41,844 bases of DNA from a virus: positions 1 to 41,844 of the IMG/VR virus record IMGVR_UViG_3300042876_000109, one strand, 5' to 3'. How positions within the stretch are numbered: the first letter of the stretch is position 1; each line of letters starts with the position of its first letter. A program made the position numbers and the translations under genes. The notes below the pieces were generated by a model. The model did no database searches. It was given only the letters and a program-made list of their open reading frames with translations, and was not told the DNA's origin. This document shows, piece by piece, positions 1,001 to 40,085 of this stretch.

Positions 1001-4000
1001 ATGCCAGGAAGACTTAATCAAACGAATACTCAGACAACTGGCTCTGGCAGATTAAATGCTGGAACTCCACAAGCAGTCACTAAGACTGCTACTGTGAGTA
1101 GATTAAAGACTACACCAGAAGTTAAAAAGAAATTAACACAAGCAGAAATTGATGCAATTATAAAAGCAAAGAATGCTCAACAGTTAGAAGAAGAAAAGAA
1201 GCAAGGTATTAAGCAAGGTACATTTGCTAACTATGGTAAGTCTCTTGGAGAGACATCGTTAGACTTTCTTAAAGGTGCAGCTAAGGGTGCTGGTCAATCT
1301 TTAGAATTCTTTTCTGGAGTAGGAGAGAAAGTACTTCAGACTCCTTTGAAACTAGCAGGTGTTAAAGTACCAGAGAAAACATCTGCACAGAGTCTTCGAG
1401 AAGTTACAGAAAAGAAACTTGGAGTTAAGAAAGGAGAACTCTTCAAAGCAAATACAACAGGAGAGAAGATCGGAAAGACTACAGAACAAGTAGCAGAGTA
1501 TTTGATACCAGGTACTGCTGGATACAAAGTTGGTAAAGCAGCACAAGCATCGAAGTTACTTACGAACGCACCTAAGATCGTTGGAAGACTTGCTCCATAC
1601 GTAATTGAAGGTGCAGTTGATGCTGCTACTTCGTTACCGTTATTATATTCACAAGCAGAACCAGGAGAACCAGTAACAGGTAAAGATGTTGCTATAAATA
1701 CTGCAATTTCTCTTGCTGCTCCAGGTGCTACAAAGTTACTTGGTAAAGCTGGAAGACTATTCAAGAATAAGAGTATACAGGAAGCAGCACTAGCAACAGA
1801 AGAAACTGTAGCAAAAACACTTGCAAGAAATGCAGAGAAGAAGACTGCTAAAAGCACGTTAATGCAAGACATTATTCCTCCTACTAATAAACCTACAGGT
1901 ATTGCAAAAGAAGTTCAAGGCACAGCCTTAAATGCAGAAATACGAGCAGATAAAAGCATGCCTATTGGTACAAAAGAAAGCAGATTTGCTAAAGGAGTAG
2001 CTGGTAGTGATATAACAGCCCCAGAAGTCTCTAAAGGGTTAACAGACAATGCTCCTACGTACGAAGTAAAGCGTAATATTGATATACAGAATAAAGCAGT
2101 ACAGATGGTTAAAGAGAATGCTTCTGAAGCAGAGAACTTTGTACTGAACGAAAGTAAACCATCTGCTGAGCATACTGCTACTGCTGTTGAGTTAATTAAG
2201 AAGATGCAGAATGAAGGAAACTTCGAAGGTGCTATACGTATCGCAGACGATGTATCTAAGAAACTTACAGAAGCTGGTCAAGCTATTCAAGCTGCTAAGC
2301 TATACGAGAACTTATCTCCTGAGAGTGTTCTTGTTAAAGCTAAGTCGTTTATAAACAAAGAAAATAAGAAAGCAAATATCTTCCAGAAGACTAAGCAGTT
2401 AACAGAAGCAGATGCACAGACATTATATGATACTGCGAAGAAGATGCAGAATGCTACTGGAGATGCTAAGCAAGAACTCTCGAATGAAATTGCTTCGATC
2501 TTAGCTGGGTATCAAAACAATTCTGTTCTAAAGAAATTATCTTCTATACAAACTCAAGCACAGTTATTGAATCCTAAGACAACCACTAGAAACGTTATTG
2601 GTAACGAATTATTCTACAGAGTAGAAAGACTTACTAAGATGCTTGCAACCCCAATTGATATCGCTAGAAGTACATTGACAGGTACAGAAAGAACAGTAAC
2701 GATGAAGAAAGGAAATCAGAAACAATACTGGTCAGATTGGTTCAAAGGTGCTCAAGCTGGTTGGAAAGGAGTTCAACTAGGTCCAGATACTCAATTCCAA
2801 TTACCTGTTAAGACTTTCAATAACAAATGGAATCCATTCTACTGGGGAGAGAAAGCAGTTGGTGCTACATTAAAGTCTTTCGATTATGCAGCTTATAATA
2901 GAGCTAGATTAGAAACTCTTTACGAGATGGGTTGGTTAAGAGCTAAGAGAGAAGGTGCTAAAGGAAAAGAATTAAAACAACTAGCACAGAAGTATGCAGA
3001 CAATGCTGACAATACTATTTTAGAGATTGCAGATCAGTACGGTAAATATACGACATTCCAAGATGATAACGTAATCTCGAAGATGGCTATCGGTCTTAAG
3101 AAAGGTTTAAATGTTAGTAAAGATTTTGGTCTAGGAGATCTTGTCCTTAAGTATCCTAAGACTCCTGGAGCATTGATGTCAAGAGCTTTAGAATATTCTC
3201 CAGCTGGATTCCTTAAAGCTGCTAAAGAAGTTGCTACACCAATCTATATGGGTAGAGCAAAGACTCTAGCAGAGAATAAAGAATTAGCAATGACAGTCTC
3301 CCGTGCTATTACAGGTACTCTTGGCTTTACTGGTCTTGGTTATTACTTTGCAGATAAAGGATTCTTAACAGGAAGACAGAGTAAAGATAAAGATGTTGCT
3401 AGTTTACAAAAGAGTGTTGGACAAGGTAAGTATCAAATGAATCTCTCTGCTATTAAGAGATGGGTATTATCAGGCTTTAAGAATACATCGATTAAAGCAG
3501 GAGACTTACTTTATACTTACGACTGGGCTCAACCAATTGCTGTATCGCTCTCTGTTGGTACTAACATGAATCAGACACCAACTGATAACGTTTTAAGTGT
3601 AGGAGAACAAATAGCATCGGGAGCTCAAACGATTACTGAGCAACCATTACTCTCTGGTCTAACTAGACTCTTCGGTTACGGAGATCCTCTTGGAGGTTTA
3701 CAAGCAACAGCAGAAGGTGCTGCTAGTTCATTCTCTCCTACAATTCTAAATCAGTTCAGACAATACACTGATAATCAAACACGTTCTACTAAATCTGATT
3801 CTTCTGTGCAAACTGCTATTAATCTTACGAAGAATAAGATTCCAGGATTAGACGATACACTTACTCCTAAGTACGATGTACTCGGAGAACCAGTACAGAA
3901 TATGGAGAAGAATAACATCTTTAACGTATTCTTTAGTCCAGGTGCTCAATCTACCTTCAAAGAGAATCCAGAAACTAAGTTGATCTTAGATCTTATCTCT

Positions 4001-5104
4001 TCTACAGGAGAAACTAAACAAGTACCCAGAGTTATACCAGACAAGCAAACAATCCTAGGAGAACAGATCACAGTAGATCCAAATGATTATGCTGCACTAC
4101 AAAGATATGCTGGTCAAAGAACGATGCAAGGTATGTCTAGATTATTAGAGCAACCAGCATTCAACGAACTTGACGACGCAGAGAAGATCAAAGTACTTAC
4201 GAATAATCTTACAGACGTTGGTGTTGGAGTTAGAGGATTACTTACAGCTAAGAAATTGATTGAAGTACGAAACACAAAGGGAGACGCTGCTGCAGCTGCT
4301 TTAGAGAAAACATTAAAGCCAGCAGATCTACGTAATGTACAAAATGCAATCAATTACTTGAAAGCAAATCCTACATTCTTTAATATTGATATGAATCCCA
4401 AGATAGAAGAGAAACCTAAGAAGTCATCGATGCTAGATTCTCTTAAGATTAAAGAAGCAAATGCTTCTGAACTTAGTAAAGAAGAATTAACACAGAGAAG
4501 AGATGCATTGAACAAAGAGAATGCTCAGTTAGAACAAAAGATAACAGATCTACGAAGATCTAAGATGACAGAAGGAGAAACAGAATTCGACGTATCTACT
4601 GGAAAGAAGTATAAGATGATTAATGGAACACGTATCGAAGTTAAATCTAAAGGAATCAAGAGGGATACTCCAGTAGAACAGAAAGGTTCTGGAGAACTTA
4701 AAGAACCAGATCTGAAAGTTATCTCTACTGTTGTAGCAGAAGCACTCGGAGAAGGAGAAGAGGGAATGCAAGCTGTCTTAAACGTTATCAATAATCGAGC
4801 AGCTAAGAATAATACTACACCTTTCGATGAAGTAGCTAAACCTGCACAGTTCTCTGCTTTTTCTTCTGATAACAAAATCTACCAAAGGGTTAGAGATTAC
4901 CTAAGAGGTAAGAAAATAGAACTAACACCTGACGAAAAGAAAGCAGTAGAATTTGTAAAGAATATGGTTACAAATGGTACGAAAGACATTACAGGTGGTG
5001 CTACACATTACGCTAATATTAAAGACTCAACAGATCGATCATGGTTTGATAAGATACCTAAGACTGGTAAGATTGGAAGACATACATTTTTTAAAGAATC
5101 TTAG
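1001..5104 (+). CDS. Large internal virion/ejection protein with C-terminal SleB-like cell wall hydrolase
   Basis: The product has 1367 residues and a TAG stop. Residues about 1240-1367 match the Hydrolase_2/SleB pattern: a VVAEALGEGEEG segment carrying the likely catalytic Glu, then LNVINNR, a GGATHYAN segment and a final HTFF. Such domains cut peptidoglycan. The rest is mostly helical: a basic N-terminus with LTQAEID-type helices, a central region containing TTRNVIGN and several hydrophobic helices near residue 800, and a coiled coil near 1165-1195. Length and a terminal muralytic domain resemble T7 gp16, although T7 has a transglycosylase at the N-terminus. The likely role is ejection from the capsid and local wall digestion during DNA entry. 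It is the last gene of the late operon and is followed by the terminator-like repeat at 5112-5203. Confidence 0.85.
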   Translation: MPGRLNQTNTQTTGSGRLNAGTPQAVTKTATVSRLKTTPEVKKKLTQAEIDAIIKAKNAQQLEEEKKQGIKQGTFANYGKSLGETSLDFLKGAAKGAGQSLEFFSGVGEKVLQTPLKLAGVKVPEKTSAQSLREVTEKKLGVKKGELFKANTTGEKIGKTTEQVAEYLIPGTAGYKVGKAAQASKLLTNAPKIVGRLAPYVIEGAVDAATSLPLLYSQAEPGEPVTGKDVAINTAISLAAPGATKLLGKAGRLFKNKSIQEAALATEETVAKTLARNAEKKTAKSTLMQDIIPPTNKPTGIAKEVQGTALNAEIRADKSMPIGTKESRFAKGVAGSDITAPEVSKGLTDNAPTYEVKRNIDIQNKAVQMVKENASEAENFVLNESKPSAEHTATAVELIKKMQNEGNFEGAIRIADDVSKKLTEAGQAIQAAKLYENLSPESVLVKAKSFINKENKKANIFQKTKQLTEADAQTLYDTAKKMQNATGDAKQELSNEIASILAGYQNNSVLKKLSSIQTQAQLLNPKTTTRNVIGNELFYRVERLTKMLATPIDIARSTLTGTERTVTMKKGNQKQYWSDWFKGAQAGWKGVQLGPDTQFQLPVKTFNNKWNPFYWGEKAVGATLKSFDYAAYNRARLETLYEMGWLRAKREGAKGKELKQLAQKYADNADNTILEIADQYGKYTTFQDDNVISKMAIGLKKGLNVSKDFGLGDLVLKYPKTPGALMSRALEYSPAGFLKAAKEVATPIYMGRAKTLAENKELAMTVSRAITGTLGFTGLGYYFADKGFLTGRQSKDKDVASLQKSVGQGKYQMNLSAIKRWVLSGFKNTSIKAGDLLYTYDWAQPIAVSLSVGTNMNQTPTDNVLSVGEQIASGAQTITEQPLLSGLTRLFGYGDPLGGLQATAEGAASSFSPTILNQFRQYTDNQTRSTKSDSSVQTAINLTKNKIPGLDDTLTPKYDVLGEPVQNMEKNNIFNVFFSPGAQSTFKENPETKLILDLISSTGETKQVPRVIPDKQTILGEQITVDPNDYAALQRYAGQRTMQGMSRLLEQPAFNELDDAEKIKVLTNNLTDVGVGVRGLLTAKKLIEVRNTKGDAAAAALEKTLKPADLRNVQNAINYLKANPTFFNIDMNPKIEEKPKKSSMLDSLKIKEANASELSKEELTQRRDALNKENAQLEQKITDLRRSKMTEGETEFDVSTGKKYKMINGTRIEVKSKGIKRDTPVEQKGSGELKEPDLKVISTVVAEALGEGEEGMQAVLNVINNRAAKNNTTPFDEVAKPAQFSAFSSDNKIYQRVRDYLRGKKIELTPDEKKAVEFVKNMVTNGTKDITGGATHYANIKDSTDRSWFDKIPKTGKIGRHTFFKES

Positions 5105-6561: not shown

Positions 6562-7374
6562 CTACAATGAAAAATGAACGTCATGACTGTTTGCCATGAA
6601 CTTAGCTTTAGGACTACCAAGTTTAGCAATTGGTAACCCCTTCTGTTGAGCATATCCTCCTTCCCAGTTCAAGTATGAACCAGTCATGACGATATACTGT
6701 TTCCTTTCGATTATGCATCTACTCCTAAGATCAACCTGTTGAATGATTCTCGTAGCAGTAGAGAGTTCATGTGTATGCCCATAAGCAATAATGTCGCTAT
6801 TAAGAAAGTATCCAATCTTAATCGCAGCATTAAGTTTCGTATAACTCTGAGTTGAGTTTGAACTTCCGTGTGTTGAATATAAAGTATATTTCTGCTTCCC
6901 TACGTTTATCAAATGCCAGCATGCATAACTGCAGTATGGAATCTTTAGTAGTTTAGCGATAAACTTTGTGATGTCAATACCTGTACCTTTTGTGATACGT
7001 TGTTCATGGTTACCTTCGTGGATACCAACTAGTAAATTTGCTTCTGCTAAAGGTGTTAGCAATTCTATCATTGCTTCTACCTGTTCTTGCGGATTAAGTT
7101 TCTGCTGGTATACACCGTGACCTACACTATCTCTTAGAGCGATCTCCATTAGATCACCCATCAGCAGAGTAGGTACATGTTCTCGTAATGCCCAGTCTAA
7201 CATTGCTAATGCTTGTTTCGTTGCACATTGCTCTGAGCCCCAATGTAAGTCTCCGAAGAATAACAGAGGAGCGTAACCCTTATCGTTAGCTTCTAAGTTA
7301 ATCCTGTTGAGTTTCATTGGTCTCCCAATTAACTTGTCCTTCCCAGAGAATGCTTCCAACTGAGATTTCTTCAT
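6562..7374 (-). CDS. Calcineurin-like metallophosphoesterase
   Basis: 270 residues. All five family motifs are visible: GDLHWG (residues 41-46, Asp42 and His44), MGDLME (72-77), GNHE (121-124), THG (168-170) and GHTH (199-202). These bind a two-metal centre that hydrolyses phosphodiesters or phosphomonoesters. Phage members are often annotated as DNA-repair exonucleases, but substrate cannot be told from the motifs. It lies between the large glycosyltransferase and the Cys-rich cluster in the early operon, so a nucleic acid or nucleotide substrate is likely. Confidence 0.9.
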   Translation of the reverse strand: MKKSQLEAFSGKDKLIGRPMKLNRINLEANDKGYAPLLFFGDLHWGSEQCATKQALAMLDWALREHVPTLLMGDLMEIALRDSVGHGVYQQKLNPQEQVEAMIELLTPLAEANLLVGIHEGNHEQRITKGTGIDITKFIAKLLKIPYCSYACWHLINVGKQKYTLYSTHGSSNSTQSYTKLNAAIKIGYFLNSDIIAYGHTHELSTATRIIQQVDLRSRCIIERKQYIVMTGSYLNWEGGYAQQKGLPIAKLGSPKAKFMANSHDVHFSL

Positions 7375-7419: not shown

Positions 7420-10287
7420 CTATTCAGCTAACTTCTTTTTAAGCAACTCTCTGTCTTCTTCTGCTTTGCACCATCCAAGTGTATAAACTGCATCCATCTT
7501 ACCTCCTTTACTGAAATGGTAATGATGTACTATAGCTAACTCTGCTCTTGTCTTTCTTTTACATTTACTCCATAGCAGATTATCTACCCCTACATGATTG
7601 AAGTCTTCGTCGAAGATCTTTCCATCTAATTCTAATTCGACATAATCTCTTCGTATCATAAAGTGTTCGCAGATATTACCTTCATCTGGTAGTACATCTC
7701 CTGTATTGAATGCTACAAGATTGTTCTCTTTACTTTCTGCAACTGCGTGTATGATACTGTTCGGAGTAAATTCAATGTCATTCGAACCATATACATAACG
7801 ATCTGCTACTTCACTCTCTTTGTAGATCTTGTTTAATCGTTTAGCAACACCTAGTCTTGGTTCATCCTCTTCTGTGTTAACAATCAAATTTGGGTACTTT
7901 ATCTTCTTAATCGATTCTAGAACTCTTCGTAAACCACTCGGTCTCAAAAGAGTTGGTATCAAAATATTTACTACTGGTAAAAAGTACTTATACATAAAGA
8001 GAATGTCGTCTTGAGTAATCTGGTACGTTCTTGTTTGACCTATAATTGGATCGAATGAACTACCGATATCAATGTATGTAGCATTCTGTTGTTTAAGCAT
8101 ACATTCGTGTATCATTGCTTTAGCAATCATACCGCAACTAAAGATAAAGATAGTATCTGATTTAAGCATAGACAGTAACTTGTCAGTAATTTCTCTGTAT
8201 TTACTGAAACCATCGATTGCAGGTACTTCTACGAATTCTGCTCCTAAGATGTATGCTACAATCTTTAATTCTTTCCTACCAACATATATCTTCTTTCTGT
8301 TGTCTCTGATTATGGTATCGTAGAAGTTATATACTTTGTTCAAATCGTTATCTGTTCTGTGGAGAAGAGTATTATATTCCTTCTGGTTCTCGAATCTAAC
8401 TACGTGAGCTTTATCAGATTCAGCAAAGAATTCAAATGCAGCATTAAGTTTGTCTCCGAGTTCCTTGTGATAGATACTTCCATCACAGTTAGCACCTTGT
8501 TCGTAATTCATGCATGCTTCTTCTCCGTCCCCACTTTTGATAAAACTGAAGTCTTCTCTCTTCTTGAGTTTCTCAGTAAGCACTTCGTTAATCTCTTTAC
8601 TCTCTTGTTCAGTAACGTACTTATACCAGATGCTTCCTACTACACCATCGATCTTACCTACTACTTCATTTACTGCTTTCATTACTCCAGGCCACCCTAT
8701 TTGATAATCGTGACCACATAGTAATACTCTTGCTTTATCTTTCCACATCAATATGTCTTTCTTAACTCCTTCGTATGTATGTTCAGCATCAATGAATACC
8801 ATATCAAACTTAAGACCTTCTAATGCTCTAGCAGCTAAGTCAGAAGATACTTTATGTATTCTCAGGTTCTTGTAGTGTCCTACGTTCTCTATAAACTGAC
8901 TGTAGACGTCTTCTTTCTGTCCGAGTTCTTTTGTAGAATCATTAACATCGTCTGAACCTTGAAAGTGATCAACTGCTGTGACTGTACCTTTGCACCCAGA
9001 AAGTAGAGCATCAGTACTTCTACCTTTCCAGCTACCTACTTCGATAACTGTTTTCATCTCCTTACTCTTTTGATATAAGAATTCTAATTCTTCTGGTGTC
9101 ATCCATCCTTCGATTCCTTTGTCTTCGTATTCGTTCTGATAAAAGAACTTAGCTTCTGCTTGGTAGACAGGATTACCTGGTTCCATCTTAATAGCTATAT
9201 CATAATACTCTTTAGCTTTCTCTTTGTCTCCTAACCACCAGCAAGCAACGTAAAGCATACCGTATGGTAAAGACCCGTAGTGATTAAGATCGTCTGCGTA
9301 GAATCCAGAGTATTGGATTCGTAAGCATCCTTCTAAGAAGAATACACATCTTGCCCAGTCTTTCTTGTCAAAGTAATACCTACCTAGTTTGATTAATGGT
9401 TCTCTCTTGTTAGAGAATTCAATGTATGCTTTCAGATACGATTGTATAGCTTTCGAATCTTTACCTAACATCATATAGCAGTCTCCTATAAAGATTAAGG
9501 ACTGACTTCTTTCTGCATCCCACTGTCCAATCGTAAGATGTCTTTCGAATTCTTCTATTGCTGAATGTAAGAATCCTCTGTACATTAACTCTCTAGCAAA
9601 GTAATGACTGTTTCTGTCTTTCTTAGGATTCTCGTAACAATCAATTGCTAGACCTATTAGATAACCTTTCCTGTCTGTAGATTCGTTCTGATAATGCTCG
9701 ATCTTAAAGATGTTCTCTGGTAAGAAGATTCTGTTAGCATTACCTACTAGTACTTCGTGAATGATACCTTCCCAATGCATTACAGTTCTATCGTAGAACT
9801 TGCACTGTACAAACTTAATTGTTTCTTCACCATTCGGTCCGTGTGCAAATACGAAGTTAAACTCTAATTGATTGTAACCTTGTTTAATCTTATGTTGTAC
9901 TGCATCAATATCTAGTTTAGTAAAGATCTCGTCACAGTCAGGCATACTTACCATATCGTTTGATGCTAGACTTGCACAGTAGTTTCTAGCAGATGCAAAG
10001 TCGAAGTTCTTATCTCCTGCGTGTACGATACTCTTACCAGTATCTATACAGAACTTATCGTTAATGTTATCTGCTAGATCTTTACTAACTACTCTTACGA
10101 ATTTATCTCCTACTTCTTCTACTTTGCATCCCCAGTCTCTCGCTACTTTAGCTGTAAGATCAGTAGATCCAGTATCTAGAAGTACTACTTCACCTCCTCT
10201 TTGTTTAAACTCTTCTAGAGTATGTAATAATCTGGGCAGAGTCTTCTCTTCGTTTCTTGCAATTAAGCAAATTGAAAAGTTTATCAT
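7420..10287 (-). CDS. Multidomain glycosyltransferase / TPR / SAM-methyltransferase protein
   Basis: 955 residues, unusually large for a 42-kb phage. Residues 1-200 are a family 2 glycosyltransferase domain: ICLIARNEEKTL, LLDTGSTD and a DxD-like D117-C-D119. Residues about 210-385 form TPR-like helices. Residues about 405-560 are a class I SAM methyltransferase of the Methyltransf_24 type, with VIEVGSWKG (414-422) and FIDAEHTYEGV. Residues about 578-765 contain SGDGE (585-589) and resemble the GT-D (DUF1792) glycosyltransferase fold. Residues 772-950 look like a second GT-A domain (NILIPTLLRPSGLRRVL). The protein should transfer several sugars and perhaps a methyl group. Its early-operon place and the hydroxymethylase gene suggest DNA as acceptor; the Thr-rich collagen-like fibre or a host glycan are alternatives. 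Domain calls are firm for GT2 and methyltransferase, weaker for the last two. Confidence 0.85.
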   Translation of the reverse strand: MINFSICLIARNEEKTLPRLLHTLEEFKQRGGEVVLLDTGSTDLTAKVARDWGCKVEEVGDKFVRVVSKDLADNINDKFCIDTGKSIVHAGDKNFDFASARNYCASLASNDMVSMPDCDEIFTKLDIDAVQHKIKQGYNQLEFNFVFAHGPNGEETIKFVQCKFYDRTVMHWEGIIHEVLVGNANRIFLPENIFKIEHYQNESTDRKGYLIGLAIDCYENPKKDRNSHYFARELMYRGFLHSAIEEFERHLTIGQWDAERSQSLIFIGDCYMMLGKDSKAIQSYLKAYIEFSNKREPLIKLGRYYFDKKDWARCVFFLEGCLRIQYSGFYADDLNHYGSLPYGMLYVACWWLGDKEKAKEYYDIAIKMEPGNPVYQAEAKFFYQNEYEDKGIEGWMTPEELEFLYQKSKEMKTVIEVGSWKGRSTDALLSGCKGTVTAVDHFQGSDDVNDSTKELGQKEDVYSQFIENVGHYKNLRIHKVSSDLAARALEGLKFDMVFIDAEHTYEGVKKDILMWKDKARVLLCGHDYQIGWPGVMKAVNEVVGKIDGVVGSIWYKYVTEQESKEINEVLTEKLKKREDFSFIKSGDGEEACMNYEQGANCDGSIYHKELGDKLNAAFEFFAESDKAHVVRFENQKEYNTLLHRTDNDLNKVYNFYDTIIRDNRKKIYVGRKELKIVAYILGAEFVEVPAIDGFSKYREITDKLLSMLKSDTIFIFSCGMIAKAMIHECMLKQQNATYIDIGSSFDPIIGQTRTYQITQDDILFMYKYFLPVVNILIPTLLRPSGLRRVLESIKKIKYPNLIVNTEEDEPRLGVAKRLNKIYKESEVADRYVYGSNDIEFTPNSIIHAVAESKENNLVAFNTGDVLPDEGNICEHFMIRRDYVELELDGKIFDEDFNHVGVDNLLWSKCKRKTRAELAIVHHYHFSKGGKMDAVYTLGWCKAEEDRELLKKKLAE

Positions 10288-10712: not shown

Positions 10713-10736
10713 ATGTTTTCTTTAGTTAGTTAAGTG

Positions 10737-10807
10737 AGCTGAATAGAAGAATCGAACTTCTACCTATACGTTACAAATGTATTATTCTACCGTTAAACTA
10801 ATTCAGC
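10737..10807 (-). tRNA. tRNA-Thr (anticodon UGU)
   Basis: The minus strand folds into a cloverleaf. The acceptor stem GCTGAAT/ATTCAGC has 7 bp, the D arm is GTTT/GAAT with GG in the loop, and the T arm AGAAG/CTTCT has 5 bp with loop TTCGATT. The anticodon loop is TTTGTAA, giving anticodon UGU for ACA (Thr) codons. The anticodon stem ATACA/CGTAT has one A-C mismatch at its loop end. The discriminator is T and CCA is not encoded. ACA is common in the AT-rich late genes. It lies inside the early operon between a hairpin and the 77-residue gene, so it must be cut from a long transcript or have its own promoter. Confidence 0.88.
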
Positions 10808-14347: not shown

Positions 14348-15061
14348 TTAGTAGTTTTTAAGCTTCTCCCAATCTCTCTTGTATACGTGCAGACTAGATA
14401 CGAACATAAAGAACTTACCTGGTTCTATCATCAGCATCTTAGCGATATGCTTTCTAAGTTCGTCAGCAAGCCAGATGTCATTCTGGAAGTGAGTAGCAAA
14501 GTCAGAAGATCTCATTACGTAGATAACATCTAACTTACCGTCTCTTATCATAAAATGATAGAACATAGAGCAAGGTATTCGATTCTTACCCATCGATGAA
14601 GTATCTCTTGCTCTGTCATGTACTTCTATGATCGCTTGACGAGTGTCTGGATTCTTTCTTAGTTCTGCAATGATTGGAGAGATCTGCCACTGGATTCTTT
14701 CGTTGTAAGTATAATCGAATACATCAACTGATTGCTGAAGAGATGGATTATATTTATCAACTAGGAATTCATCCCAGACTTCAGGTCTTAGCTTGTATGC
14801 ATTACCTGGATTCATAAAGTCTGATTGAATTCTTTCTTTGAACTCAGCATTGCACCATTCTAAAGTAACTCCTGGCATCTGGTCTTTGTTACCCATATTG
14901 ATAACACAGAATTCAAATGCTTGGATCTCCTTAGTAAGAAAGTCTGGATCGTCTTTGATGTCCTTGTTCTGATACGTTTGCGTATGTACTTCTGTAGAAC
15001 ACTTTTTAAGTTCTCTCCCGATGTCTGTAATAGCTTCTACAGGATCTAAGTATATTCTCAT
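14348..15061 (-). CDS. dCMP hydroxymethylase-like enzyme (thymidylate synthase fold)
   Basis: 237 residues. The thymidylate-synthase fold is shown by PDTRQAI (phosphate-binding Arg region), the nucleophile Cys164 in RIPCSMFYHF, RSSD (184-187) and SLHVY (223-227). Aligned on RSxD, the synthase motif RSADVFLGLPFNI has Asn where this protein has Asp195 (RSSDFATHFQNDI). T4 dCMP hydroxymethylase (gp42) has Asp at the same place, in FRNDY, and this change sets preference for dCMP. T4 also shares the MRSxD and SLHVY contexts. The enzyme should add a hydroxymethyl group to dCMP using methylene-tetrahydrofolate. It lies beside an NTP pyrophosphatase and a nucleotide kinase, as needed for a modified dCTP pool. 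Ordinary thymidylate synthase or dUMP hydroxymethylase are less likely alternatives. Confidence 0.82.
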   Translation of the reverse strand: MRIYLDPVEAITDIGRELKKCSTEVHTQTYQNKDIKDDPDFLTKEIQAFEFCVINMGNKDQMPGVTLEWCNAEFKERIQSDFMNPGNAYKLRPEVWDEFLVDKYNPSLQQSVDVFDYTYNERIQWQISPIIAELRKNPDTRQAIIEVHDRARDTSSMGKNRIPCSMFYHFMIRDGKLDVIYVMRSSDFATHFQNDIWLADELRKHIAKMLMIEPGKFFMFVSSLHVYKRDWEKLKNY

Positions 15062-15062
15062 A

Positions 15063-15338
15063 CTATTTCCTTTTGTTAGAGAATAAGATTGGAAGATCTG
15101 AAAAATCAGTAGTTCTTTTCTTCCTTAAATACTCTCTCTCTAAGAAATTAGGCTTTCCAATTGTGAGAGTACACTCGAACTTCTCTTTAGCGAACCCGTT
15201 CTTATACGCTTTACGAGTTAACCTGATTCTTTCCTTCTTCGAAAAGAATCCAGTTATACTGTGCATAGTATTTGATGCACGTAACATTTGAACACAAGAG
15301 AGAATTGCTTTCTCTTGTTTATCAGTTAATTGAATCAT
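15063..15338 (-). CDS. Small basic protein, unknown function
   Basis: About 91 residues from the ATG at 15336-15338, two bases after the upstream TGA; an in-frame ATG at 15365 would overlap the upstream gene. It begins MIQLTDKQEKAILSC and is rich in Lys and Arg. It lies between the NTP pyrophosphatase and the hydroxymethylase, so a link with nucleotide metabolism is possible. No family is recognised. Confidence 0.6.
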   Translation of the reverse strand: MIQLTDKQEKAILSCVQMLRASNTMHSITGFFSKKERIRLTRKAYKNGFAKEKFECTLTIGKPNFLEREYLRKKRTTDFSDLPILFSNKRK

Positions 15339-15339
15339 A

Positions 15340-15759
15340 TCAATATTTTGAACGAACACGTTCATGATTAACAGCAATCTTCTTTAAGACTGTTGTAGTC
15401 AATAGCTTCGGATCAATACCGGAAGCTAGACATAAATTAATAAAGTAGATTTGTATATCAGCAACCTCGTCGAGATATTCGTTAAGATCTGTTAGATACT
15501 TAGATTGTCTCCAAGTCTTAGCATTCCTTAAAGCAACTACTGCTTCGTTAATCTCTTGAACCATTCTCCAGAGTATGCGATCATTAATATGCTGGCAGAC
15601 CTCTGGATGATGTAGATTCTCAAGTTTACCAAATGCTAGTCTTTCTGGAATACCTTCTACAAGAGCAAACTTCTTCTCTACTTCTGTTTGCTTTTCAAAC
15701 ATCTGTTCTAGGAGATCTTTACCTTGTTCGATTGCAACATTTTGATTAGAGATATCCAT
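15340..15759 (-). CDS. All-alpha NTP pyrophosphatase (MazG / dimeric dUTPase-dCTPase type)
   Basis: 139 residues, entirely helical. The metal-binding pattern of the superfamily is visible: ExxE at Glu69-Glu72 (QEINEAVVAL) and ExxD at Glu98-Asp101 (DEVADIQIYFINL), followed by a K...NHERVRSKY end typical of the group. Members hydrolyse dUTP, dCTP or other NTPs to the monophosphate and pyrophosphate. T4 gp56 of this class turns dCTP into dCMP for the hydroxymethylase. Beside a dCMP-hydroxymethylase-like gene, a dCTPase role is likely; dUTPase is the main alternative. Confidence 0.85.
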   Translation of the reverse strand: MDISNQNVAIEQGKDLLEQMFEKQTEVEKKFALVEGIPERLAFGKLENLHHPEVCQHINDRILWRMVQEINEAVVALRNAKTWRQSKYLTDLNEYLDEVADIQIYFINLCLASGIDPKLLTTTVLKKIAVNHERVRSKY

Positions 15760-15764
15760 AGTAG

Positions 15765-16304
15765 TTACCTACTTCTTCTAGCTGTCCAGAAGTGTAGATT
15801 ATTAAGTTGAATTACTAATTGAGAAAGCATTCTTTGTCTGTCGTGAGAACCATCAATGTATACGAAAGAAAGTTTACTCTTCTTGAAGTATTCTTCGTAC
15901 TTCTTTGCAATAAGTTCGATCTCCTTTTCTTTGACGTATTCTTCTTTGTCAGTCTTAAATCTTTCTTTGACTGTTTCTAATGGAGCATCGACATAAACTA
16001 CAACGACATAGTGCTTATTTAATTCCTCCCATTTAAGCCAGAAGTTCTTTGAAGGTTTGTATCCTCTTTTTACTTCTGCGTAAGCAATTTCTGTTATATG
16101 AGAACGATCAAAGATTAGATCTTGTTTTCCAACTCTTGCTGCTTCGTAAGCACCAAAGTAAGTACCATTTACAAAACCTCTGTCGTACATCTTATCAGTA
16201 GGCTTAATAGGATTCTTAAATACATCGATACCAGAAAGATCAACGAAGTTCTTGATAAGTGTAGTCTTGCCACTTTTGTCTAAACCTTCAAACAAGAATA
16301 ACAT
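15765..16304 (-). CDS. P-loop deoxynucleoside monophosphate kinase (thymidylate kinase-like)
   Basis: 179 residues from the ATG at 16302-16304, which gives MLFLFEGLDKSGKTT with the P-loop at the usual place; an earlier in-frame start would only add a Lys/Arg-rich stretch overlapping the SSB tail. Other motifs are DRSHITEIAYAE, like the DR motif of thymidylate kinases, and YVDAPLETVKERF with the lid following. It phosphorylates a dNMP. In this context the substrate may be dTMP or hydroxymethyl-dCMP, the step performed in T4 by gp1, which has a different family origin. Confidence 0.87.
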   Translation of the reverse strand: MLFLFEGLDKSGKTTLIKNFVDLSGIDVFKNPIKPTDKMYDRGFVNGTYFGAYEAARVGKQDLIFDRSHITEIAYAEVKRGYKPSKNFWLKWEELNKHYVVVVYVDAPLETVKERFKTDKEEYVKEKEIELIAKKYEEYFKKSKLSFVYIDGSHDRQRMLSQLVIQLNNLHFWTARRSR

Positions 16305-16305
16305 A

Positions 16306-16794
16306 TTATTTCTTAGCAAATAAGTCTTCGTCTTCCTCTTCGTCTTCTTCCTCGTCATCTTCTTCGTCTTCCTCTTCTTCCTCTTCGACTACTTTCTTAG
16401 CTTTCTTTACTTTCTTAACAACAACTTCTTCTTCCTCTTCTTCGTCTTCCTCTTCGTCTTCGTCGACATCCTTAGGCATAGATGCAACCTTTAAGACTTT
16501 GACAGAAAAGTCAGTCTTCTGTCCTTCACCAAGTTTAGTGATTTGAACTTTACTTCCTGGAATAACACTCGCCATCTTAGCTCCGAATTTCTTAGCACCA
16601 GTTCCAAGTTGTTTCTCTTCACCGTTCTCGTTCTTAAAGAGATAGACAGGTTTAATCTTATCGTATTTCTCGTCTTTCTCTGCTCTCCAAGTTAAGTAAG
16701 TGCCGACGAATGAATCACCGACATCTAACTTCAAATACTTACCATTACCTTTAGTAAGTTTTAGAAGTCTCTTGTCTACGTATTTTTCTGACAT
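16306..16794 (-). CDS. SSB-like DNA-binding protein with long acidic tail
   Basis: 162 residues. The first ~105 form a small beta-rich basic domain (KGNGKYLKLDVGDSFVGTYL, then KVLKVASMP). The last ~50 are almost only Glu and Asp with a short Lys/Val patch between, ending EDEDLFAKK. An OB-like domain plus acidic C-terminal tail is the plan of single-stranded DNA-binding proteins such as T7 gp2.5, whose tail recruits polymerase and primase-helicase. It sits directly between the primase-helicase and the nucleotide kinase. No fold-level proof is available by eye. Confidence 0.65.
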   Translation of the reverse strand: MSEKYVDKRLLKLTKGNGKYLKLDVGDSFVGTYLTWRAEKDEKYDKIKPVYLFKNENGEEKQLGTGAKKFGAKMASVIPGSKVQITKLGEGQKTDFSVKVLKVASMPKDVDEDEEEDEEEEEEVVVKKVKKAKKVVEEEEEEDEEDDEEEDEEEDEDLFAKK

Positions 16795-37541: not shown

Positions 37542-40085
37542 ATGCCATTACAATCAAGAGCTACTCTCAAGAAATATTTTGAGACTAGAGACAAACCAAC
37601 TCAGGGTCAATTTGCTGACTTAATCGATAGTCTTCAGAATATCACTGACGATGGTTTCAATAATGTTCTATATCCTAAAGGTGAATATGCTCTTGCAGTA
37701 GATTATGTATTCGGAGATACTGTATTGTATCAAGGATCTACATACTACTGTGTTCTAGATCATACTTCAGAAGCAGGTAAAGAACCACCTACTCTTCCTA
37801 CATTATCAAATACTTGGTGGTATGTCTTAGCAGAGAAAGGAAACGAAGGTGCAACTGGTCCGACTGGATACACTGGTCATACAGGGTACACTGGATACGG
37901 TGCTACAGGATACACTGGTAATACAGGATATACTGGTCCTATCGGTCAGACAGGATATACTGGTCCAGAAGGACCTACAGGCTATACGGGTCCAATTGGT
38001 TCTACTGGTCCTACAGGATATACTGGAACGATTGGAACGACTGGATATACTGGAGCTACTGGATATACTGGATACGGAGCAACTGGCTATACTGGTCCTA
38101 TCGGATCTACAGGGTATACAGGATACACTGGAGCTGGAACTACAGGATATACAGGTCCCGTCGGATCTACAGGATACACTGGTTATACAGGAGCAGGTAC
38201 AACAGGATACACTGGCTATACTGGTCCTATCGGAGCTACTGGTTACACCGGAGTTGGTTCAACAGGCTATACTGGTTATACGGGACCGATCGGAGCTACT
38301 GGGTACACAGGAATGGACGGTGCAGATGCTGTTGCTGGTAAACTACCAAGTTCATACGTAGAATTATCAACACCTCAGTCTGTAACGTCTGCAACACTTA
38401 TTGATGTACCTGGGTTATCAACTACAATTACACTAGACGAAGCAGTAGAGATTGCAGTATTCGCATCTTTCGAGATAGCAACTCAATCTGGTGCTTCGTC
38501 ATCTGTTATTGGTGTAGCGATCAATATTAACGGAACAGATTACGATATCTATGAAAGATACCTCTCTGGTTCTAATGACCAGGGTATCGGTGCAATCTCT
38601 CATCGTTCTCTCGAATTACCTGCTGGAACATATACAGTAAAACTCAGGTTCCAACGATCGTCTGGACTAGCTACTCCTGGATTGAATCATGCTGATTTAT
38701 TGGTTATGGCTATGCAAGGTGCTAAGGGAATACAAGGTGCTACAGGATATACAGGCTATACAGGTCCTGTTGGCCAAACAGGGTATACAGGCCCAATTGG
38801 TACAACAGGTTACACTGGACCAGCTTCGACTATTACCGGCCCTACTGGTTACACAGGAAGAACAGGGTATACAGGCTACACAGGAGCTGGTGCATTTACT
38901 GGTTACACTGGACCGATAGGCCCGACAGGATACACAGGACCTGGAGGTTCTGGTTCTATAGGTGCTACTGGCTATACTGGTTACACAGGTCCAGCATCGA
39001 CAGTTACTGGACCGACAGGATATACAGGACCTACATCAACAGGACCTACAGGATATACCGGTCGTACTGGTTACACTGGCTATACTGGTCCATCAATTAC
39101 TGGTTACACTGGTTACACTGGTGCGGGTGCTTTTACAGGATATACTGGTCCAATAGGTCCGACAGGATATACTGGTCCTGCATCGACAGTAACAGGTCCT
39201 ACTGGTTATACTGGTCGTACAGGATATACAGGATACACTGGTGCTGGAGCATTCACTGGCTATACTGGTTACACAGGACCGATCGGTCCTACTGGGTACA
39301 CTGGAGCTGGTAACTTCACTGGGTATACAGGTCCAATCGGCCCGACTGGATACACAGGACCTGCTTCTACGATTACTGGTCCTACTGGGTATACTGGTAG
39401 TACAGGGTACACTGGATATACAGGGGCTGGTGCTTTTACGGGACCAACAGGATACACTGGTCCACAAGGATCTGCTTCGACAGTAACAGGATATACTGGC
39501 TACACCGGATATACTGGACCTCAAGGTAATGCGTCGACAGTTACTGGTCCGACTGGATATACAGGTCCAATCGGCCCGACTGGTTATACAGGTGCAGGAG
39601 CATTTACTGGGCCTACTGGATACACTGGATACACAGGTGCTGCAGGTGCAACAGGATACACTGGCCCCTCTGGAGCTGGTTCATTTATTGGTTGCAGTGT
39701 TAGTAAGACTGGCGATCAAAGTGTCTCTGCTAATTCAACTACTCTCGTTACTTGGGGTACAGAAATCTACGATACAGATACAATGCACGATAATGTAACA
39801 AATAACGGCAGAATTACAATTAAGACCGCTGGAAAATACTTGATCGAGTTTAATATCAGACACGACAGAACAGTAGTTGCTAATAGTAGGTTAGTTAAAA
39901 ACGCAGAAGCACTCTTGTATAATTTCCCGTCGTATGGTGATAACGCATCGTTTACTGCAGTACATGGAAGTATCGTATTAGATCTTGCTGTTAACGATTA
40001 CTTATATCTAGAATTTAGGCATGCTTCTGGTACTGCTACTCTTAGCTACCAGTATTCAATGTTTTCTGCTACAAAAATAGGTTAA
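37542..40085 (+). CDS. Collagen-like tail fibre / receptor-binding protein with C1q-like tip
   Basis: 847 residues. N-terminal virion-attachment segment: [20 protein letters not shown] (12-31), then a [20 protein letters not shown] carbohydrate-binding-like module (49-68). Collagen region one, about 103-260, and region two, about 393-713, are Gly-X-Y triplets, mainly GYTG, GPIG, GPTG and GAGAFTG. A beta domain, 265-391, interrupts them. The C-terminal 134 residues (from [20 protein letters not shown]) look like a C1q/TNF-type trimer head with YDTDTMHD and AGKYLIEF. The triple helix should form a long stiff shaft ending in a trimeric tip that binds the host surface. Y positions are very often Thr. 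Synonymous codons vary between repeats. Confidence 0.93.

Follow-up and report, generated by a model that had tools for sequence, protein, structure and literature searches.

SunS and ThuS are peptide S-glycosyltransferases that modify a cysteine of a bacteriocin, and streptococcal GT-D enzymes extend the glycans on a serine-rich repeat adhesin. Glycosylation of collagen by a GT-TPR enzyme is already known from Clostridioides difficile: the gene sgtA adjoins bclA3, and its product SgtA (358 aa, GT-A plus TPR) adds beta-O-GlcNAc to Thr of the BclA3 collagen repeats in vitro, in a system whose initiating enzyme is known but whose enzymes for extension and capping still have to be found (PMC7157674). 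Virion glycosylation is likewise already known from mycobacteriophages, whose capsid and tail tube are glycosylated according to Freeman 2023, as cited in PMC12619734. Phage glycosyltransferases (GTs) are usually explained by DNA protection or by modification of the host surface. Isolated freshwater actinophages carry a GT, and collagen-like proteins are reported from their genomic islands; the GT was explained by the authors as serving DNA protection or superinfection exclusion (PMC10202952). A literature search covering mainly open-access papers turned up no phage GT family linked with fibres of the collagen-like type, and no single chain in which starting, extending and methylating a glycan are combined.

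The window analysed here is the whole IMG/VR record IMGVR_UViG_3300042876_000109 (41,844 bp), whose 99-bp terminal direct repeat fits with these ~42 kb being a complete genome. Its minus strand holds PolB, a primase-helicase, an exonuclease and a nucleotide cassette, and its plus strand the terminase small subunit, the fibre gene and other presumed head and tail genes. An intact minus-strand ORF with an uninterrupted frame encodes a 955-aa protein and takes up 6.85% of the record, in agreement with the earlier estimate of about 7%. The gene had also been placed in an 'early operon', which is fair as regards position alone, given that it shares a strand with the replication genes and sits at the distal end of their cluster. 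The protein and its domains are as follows.

7420-10287, minus strand: 955-aa multi-domain glycosyltransferase/methyltransferase (ORF, domain scans, model)
9685-10287, minus strand: GT-A (GT2) domain, residues 1-201 (PF00535 1.7e-12, PHROG 13126 4e-66, SunS fold)
9133-9684, minus strand: TPR superhelix, residues about 202-385 (TPR_2 1.3e-8; helical in the model)
8608-9120, minus strand: SAM-dependent O-methyltransferase (MTase) domain, residues about 390-560 (PF13578; sugar-MTase folds)
7990-8601, minus strand: GT-D fold glycosyltransferase domain with SGDGE motif, residues about 563-766 (DUF1792 4phr fold and profile)
7423-7980, minus strand: C-terminal GT-A domain, residues about 770-955 (GT2 structures found by family profile)

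This arrangement, GT2-TPR-MTase-GT-D-GT in a single chain, is the one given in the original prediction and is borne out by Pfam, PHROG, family profiles and structural models. The N-terminal GT-A domain carries the motifs DTGSTD (38-43), R101-N102, H177-E178 and the D117-C-D119 element that had been singled out before; its catalytic-type residues, D117 and D119 included, are invariant in an alignment of 13 diverse relatives, and D38, D117, D119, H177 and E178 are invariant in relatives of the GT2-TPR core. The match to PHROG 13126 (E 4e-66) spans residues 93-389 and, with the acidic motif intact, places the protein in the GT2-TPR family. In the model, SunS can be overlaid on residues 1-305 with a Z of 22.1 (261 residues at 2.5 A), and ThuS similarly; the closest solved folds to the predicted structure are these peptide S-glycosyltransferases (PDB 7msn, 7msp, 7msk). 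They share the GT2 plus helical-repeat fold and a peptide acceptor, but are only 13-16% identical and have no MTase or GT-D domain. The Listeria flagellin enzyme GmaR is also among the sequence matches, and the TPR superhelix is the predicted part for binding an acceptor protein.

The remaining domains were supported by profile searches and, for the MTase and GT-D, by structure prediction, the domain-by-domain checks that had been proposed. Methyltransf_24 (PF13578) matches residues 415-520 (E 6.8e-13), and the domain has a Rossmann SAM fold with the motif E-x-G-x-x-x-G, in which E25, G27, G31, D109, H112 and D136 (domain numbering) are invariant. Its fold (residues 385-562) is closest to MeT1 (Z 21.5), followed by others among which are SpnH (17.9), NovP (17.6) and MycF (16.6), enzymes that act on sugars of small molecules or polysaccharides and are not fused to GTs. 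The GT-D region scores 0.056 in a single-sequence Pfam scan, below the cut-off. Its assignment is nonetheless firm, since a profile built from its relatives matches streptococcal GalT1 (PDB 4phr, E 7.8e-7) and the domain modelled alone (pLDDT 92) matches DUF1792 4phr (Z 15.3, 3.0 A over 181 residues); D25-G26-E27 (domain numbering) is invariant in 11 relatives. The streptococcal GalT1/DUF1792 proteins (PDB 4phr, 4pfx, 5v4a) are alike in the GT-D fold and D-G-E motif, but are bacterial and are fused neither to a GT2-TPR unit nor to a methyltransferase. For the C-terminal ~190 residues, a profile of the family finds GT2 structures (9jma, E 1.4e-8) and D837 is invariant. The full-length model has a mean pLDDT of 84.6, with low confidence confined to parts of the GT-D region; structure comparison of the full model is dominated by methyltransferases and therefore says little about residues 770-955, which are backed by the sequence profile only. 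It is extremely improbable that the fusion is decayed or inactive and has no enzymatic function: phage accessory genes do vary and some relatives of this one are split, but the catalytic-type motifs are invariant in diverse relatives and the 955-codon frame is intact.

Two further features bear on the acceptor.

37542-40085, plus strand: collagen-like tail fibre with a C1q-like C-terminus, the predicted acceptor (PF01391 4.2e-39, PF00386 7.6e-7, PHROG tail fibre)
10736-10807, minus strand: tRNA-Thr(TGT), the sole tRNA of the genome, just upstream of the GT gene (tRNA search)

The fibre contains 142 G-X-Y triplets with Thr at Y in 97, mainly as GYT (60) and GPT (17), and 163 of its 848 codons (19%) encode Thr, 71 of these being ACA. 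The tRNA, the only match in an Rfam scan of the whole record, could possibly support synthesis of this Thr-rich protein, a weak inference; among 50 relative loci a tRNA-Thr did not recur as a partner of the GT, the exceptions being two larger tRNA sets. The 955-aa protein is probably a single-chain assembly enzyme for glycans on Thr of the fibre, which it would start, extend and O-methylate. This would resemble the way in which some spore-formers decorate the hairs of their spores. The N-terminal GT-A/TPR unit would recognize the Gly-X-Thr repeats through the TPR groove and put the first sugar on the Thr hydroxyl, as beta-O-GlcNAc by analogy with SgtA; the GT-D and C-terminal GT-A domains would attach more sugars, and one of the sugars would be O-methylated as a cap by the Methyltransf_24 domain. 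The domains, their conserved catalytic-type residues and the link to Thr-rich collagen genes in phages and bacteria are observations; we infer that the fibre is the acceptor, which sugars are used and in which order the steps run, as well as the biological role, for which fibre stability, shielding from proteases or antibodies, and receptor binding are candidates. Counting against the fibre, and the main weakness here, is that its gene lies ~9 kb from the GT gene and on the opposite strand, the GT being in the replication-side cluster.

The fibre is favoured as acceptor by the company that the GT family keeps elsewhere. Among 73 viral loci gathered by GT sequence alone, 54 hold a collagen-like ORF (defined by at least 8 G-X-Y triplets), compared with 4 of 120 viral loci drawn with a random 14-mer, the loci being 17 kb long in the GT set and ~8.5 kb in the sets drawn by pattern or at random, with some contigs shared between sets. 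The association persists after dereplication (43 of 57 loci; Fisher P 3e-24). The nearest collagen-like ORF lies within 1.5 kb in 42 loci (median gap 0.7 kb) and on the same strand as the GT in 51 of 54. Whole records often hold collagen where the local stretch has none (for example those of loci L001, L007, L015, L017, L022 and L024), and most of the larger whole records without a local match nonetheless carry it; several other MTase-bearing relatives likewise have a collagen gene at a distance. In the reverse direction, a GT was found in 28 of 120 loci retrieved with a pattern that codes for GYTG, at least 6 of these 28 lying on contigs that the GT set also includes, and in none of 120 random loci. 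The pairing is threonine-dependent: a GT relative is found with 30 of 115 Thr-rich phage collagens but with 1 of 81 Thr-poor ones (P 5e-7). No GT was found near 11 Thr-rich collagens drawn by another pattern.

The conserved core of these relatives is the GT2-TPR unit, with the C-terminal GT-A domain present in most phage members. MTase and GT-D are optional; these two and the C-terminal GT may be fused to the core, stand in another order or be encoded by separate genes next to it. Such shuffling about one GT2-TPR core suggests that the MTase, GT-D and C-terminal GT belong to a single pathway with it. Three relatives have a GT gene broken right after the conserved active-site IHEVL codons (L006/L007 10555-11080, L048 8305-8505, L073 10561-10624); the interruption is ~525 bp with an HNH-endonuclease-like ORF in L006, contains the start of a similar ORF in L048 and is a short gap in L073. 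No intron model in Rfam matched these interrupted genes, whose pattern looks like that of a homing-element target inside the GT active site.

The same GT profile, searched against one genome per species, recovers 80 cellular homologue loci, nearly all in Clostridia and other Firmicutes and typically with a GT of ~360 aa. A collagen-like ORF is present at 53 of the 80, mostly at a gap of less than 130 bp. This clostridial arrangement is that of sgtA/bclA3. SgtA and the phage protein are alike in layout, size and context: GT-A is followed by TPR in both (358 aa vs residues 1-385), both families stand beside Thr-rich collagen-like genes, and the phage acceptor would be Thr in G-X-T repeats. They differ in that SgtA is a stand-alone initiating enzyme for a spore protein, whereas the phage unit is fused to an MTase and two more GTs. 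A neighbouring collagen gene, as sgtA has, occurs in 42 of 73 phage relatives (within 1.5 kb) and at most of the 53 cellular loci; in this phage the fibre gene is in the same genome, ~9 kb away. Close relatives of the GT (50-52%) also occur beside collagen-like genes in bacterial bins (L423, L424, L425). These bins may contain phage contigs, because the GT and collagen ORF lengths and the gap between them in L424 are identical to those of the phage locus L031.

A rival reading is glycosylation of a virion protein other than the fibre, such as the capsid or another tail protein. It has a precedent in the mycobacteriophage virion glycans, which are attached to capsid and tail tube C-termini rather than collagen-like repeats in the account of Freeman 2023 given by PMC12619734, and it would accommodate both the non-adjacent fibre gene of this phage and a 102-kb relative record (G011) in which the GT-MTase core occurs with a homologue of thymidylate synthase and no collagen match was found. 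It is unlikely, since in both phages and Clostridia the GT pairs closely, and in a Thr-dependent way, with collagen genes. The possibility that the enzyme modifies the host surface (LPS, teichoic acid or capsule), thereby excluding other phages or changing serotype, is remote. Homologues are annotated as beta-1,4-glycosyltransferase or LOS glucosyltransferase, and pelagiphage authors favour this role for phage GTs (PMC7029224). However, no GtrA/GtrC-like partner was found among the scanned proteins of this phage, the GT2-TPR layout speaks against it, and the cellular homologues adjoin collagen-like genes. Fibre glycosylation thus remains the preferred reading.

The original prediction had instead assigned the sugar to DNA, proposing that a methylated multi-sugar decoration is built on hydroxymethylated DNA. 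A gp42-like enzyme, as that proposal presupposed, is present in the genome within a compact hmC-type cassette (14348-16358) that adjoins PolB.

14348-15061, minus strand: dCMP hydroxymethylase-type thymidylate synthase homologue (Asp195 at the Asn/Asp switch)
15340-15759, minus strand: MazG/PRA-PH-like nucleotide pyrophosphohydrolase of the hmC cassette (domain scans)
15765-16358, minus strand: thymidylate-kinase-like NMP kinase of the hmC cassette (domain scans)

At the switch, thymidylate synthase has Asn whereas dCMP hydroxymethylase of the T4 type has Asp, and Asp is common to all 81 aligned viral relatives of this homologue. Hydroxymethylcytosine in the DNA of this phage is therefore plausible on the strength of Asp195. 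A methylated oligosaccharide on 5-hydroxymethylcytosine would further agree with the GT gene being on the strand of the replication cluster and with TAGT of T6, a GT-A enzyme near GT2 that acts on DNA (PMC13216743). Given that TAGT is GT-A, fold alone cannot settle between a DNA and a protein target, and the earlier statement that phage DNA glucosyltransferases belong to other families is mostly true, with TAGT as an exception. The T4/T6 DNA glucosyltransferases (PF11440, PF09198, PF20691) are comparable as agents of phage sugar transfer in hmC phages, but none of these families was matched by the 955-aa protein at E 0.1, and the family of the latter does not co-occur with hydroxymethylase.

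Co-occurrence fails in both directions. A thymidylate synthase/hydroxymethylase homologue was found in 3 of 49 GT-bearing records other than this phage, and a GT relative in 1 of 50 whole records with relatives of this hydroxymethylase and in none of 80 loci; many records are fragments, so absences weigh less than presences. Homologues in phages lacking any hydroxymethylase had been named beforehand as evidence that would tell against a DNA target, and the enzyme went undetected in 46 of those 49 records. The sister phage G063 shares PolB (52%), hydroxymethylase (60%), pyrophosphatase (67%), kinase and helicase, and the hmC cassette is common to both genomes, yet neither a GT nor a collagen-like gene was found in this closest sister; both are missing from a genome that keeps the cassette. 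(The close relatives of this PolB in IMG/VR came to one distant locus only.) With the TPR and the closest solved relatives pointing to peptide acceptors, DNA hypermodification is very unlikely and was set aside as the target. Of the earlier proposal, glycan building and methylation stand; DNA as acceptor is unsupported, the GT tracking Thr-rich collagen genes in phages and Clostridia. The sole hydroxymethylase record with a GT relative is G068 (L503 15126-17391), where the GT overlaps the gene of a repetitive, beta-propeller-like protein; for this reason, distant GT members may have a non-collagen acceptor.

The many loci that link one GT family to Thr-rich collagen-like fibres offer a concrete and testable acceptor for phage GTs. 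It is an evenly balanced proposition that they represent a widespread phage system, in which one modular enzyme initiates, elongates and caps methylated multi-sugar glycans directly on collagen-fibre Thr, with shuffled domains, a core in common with spore-formers and the heavily glycosylated collagen rod as a host-contact device. If true, many phage tail fibres would be glycoproteins, with effects on phage host recognition, stability and immune visibility; single-chain enzymes would be on offer for making glycosylated collagen, and the decoration of collagen-like proteins in Clostridia would be easier to explain.

Two other genes on the record merit mention. A calcineurin-like metallophosphoesterase (PHROG 7339) is encoded at 6562-7374, on the same strand as the GT gene and directly downstream of it. 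A 1367-aa protein without a PHROG match (1001-5104) ends in a cell wall hydrolase domain (PF07486) and may be a virion-borne lytic protein.
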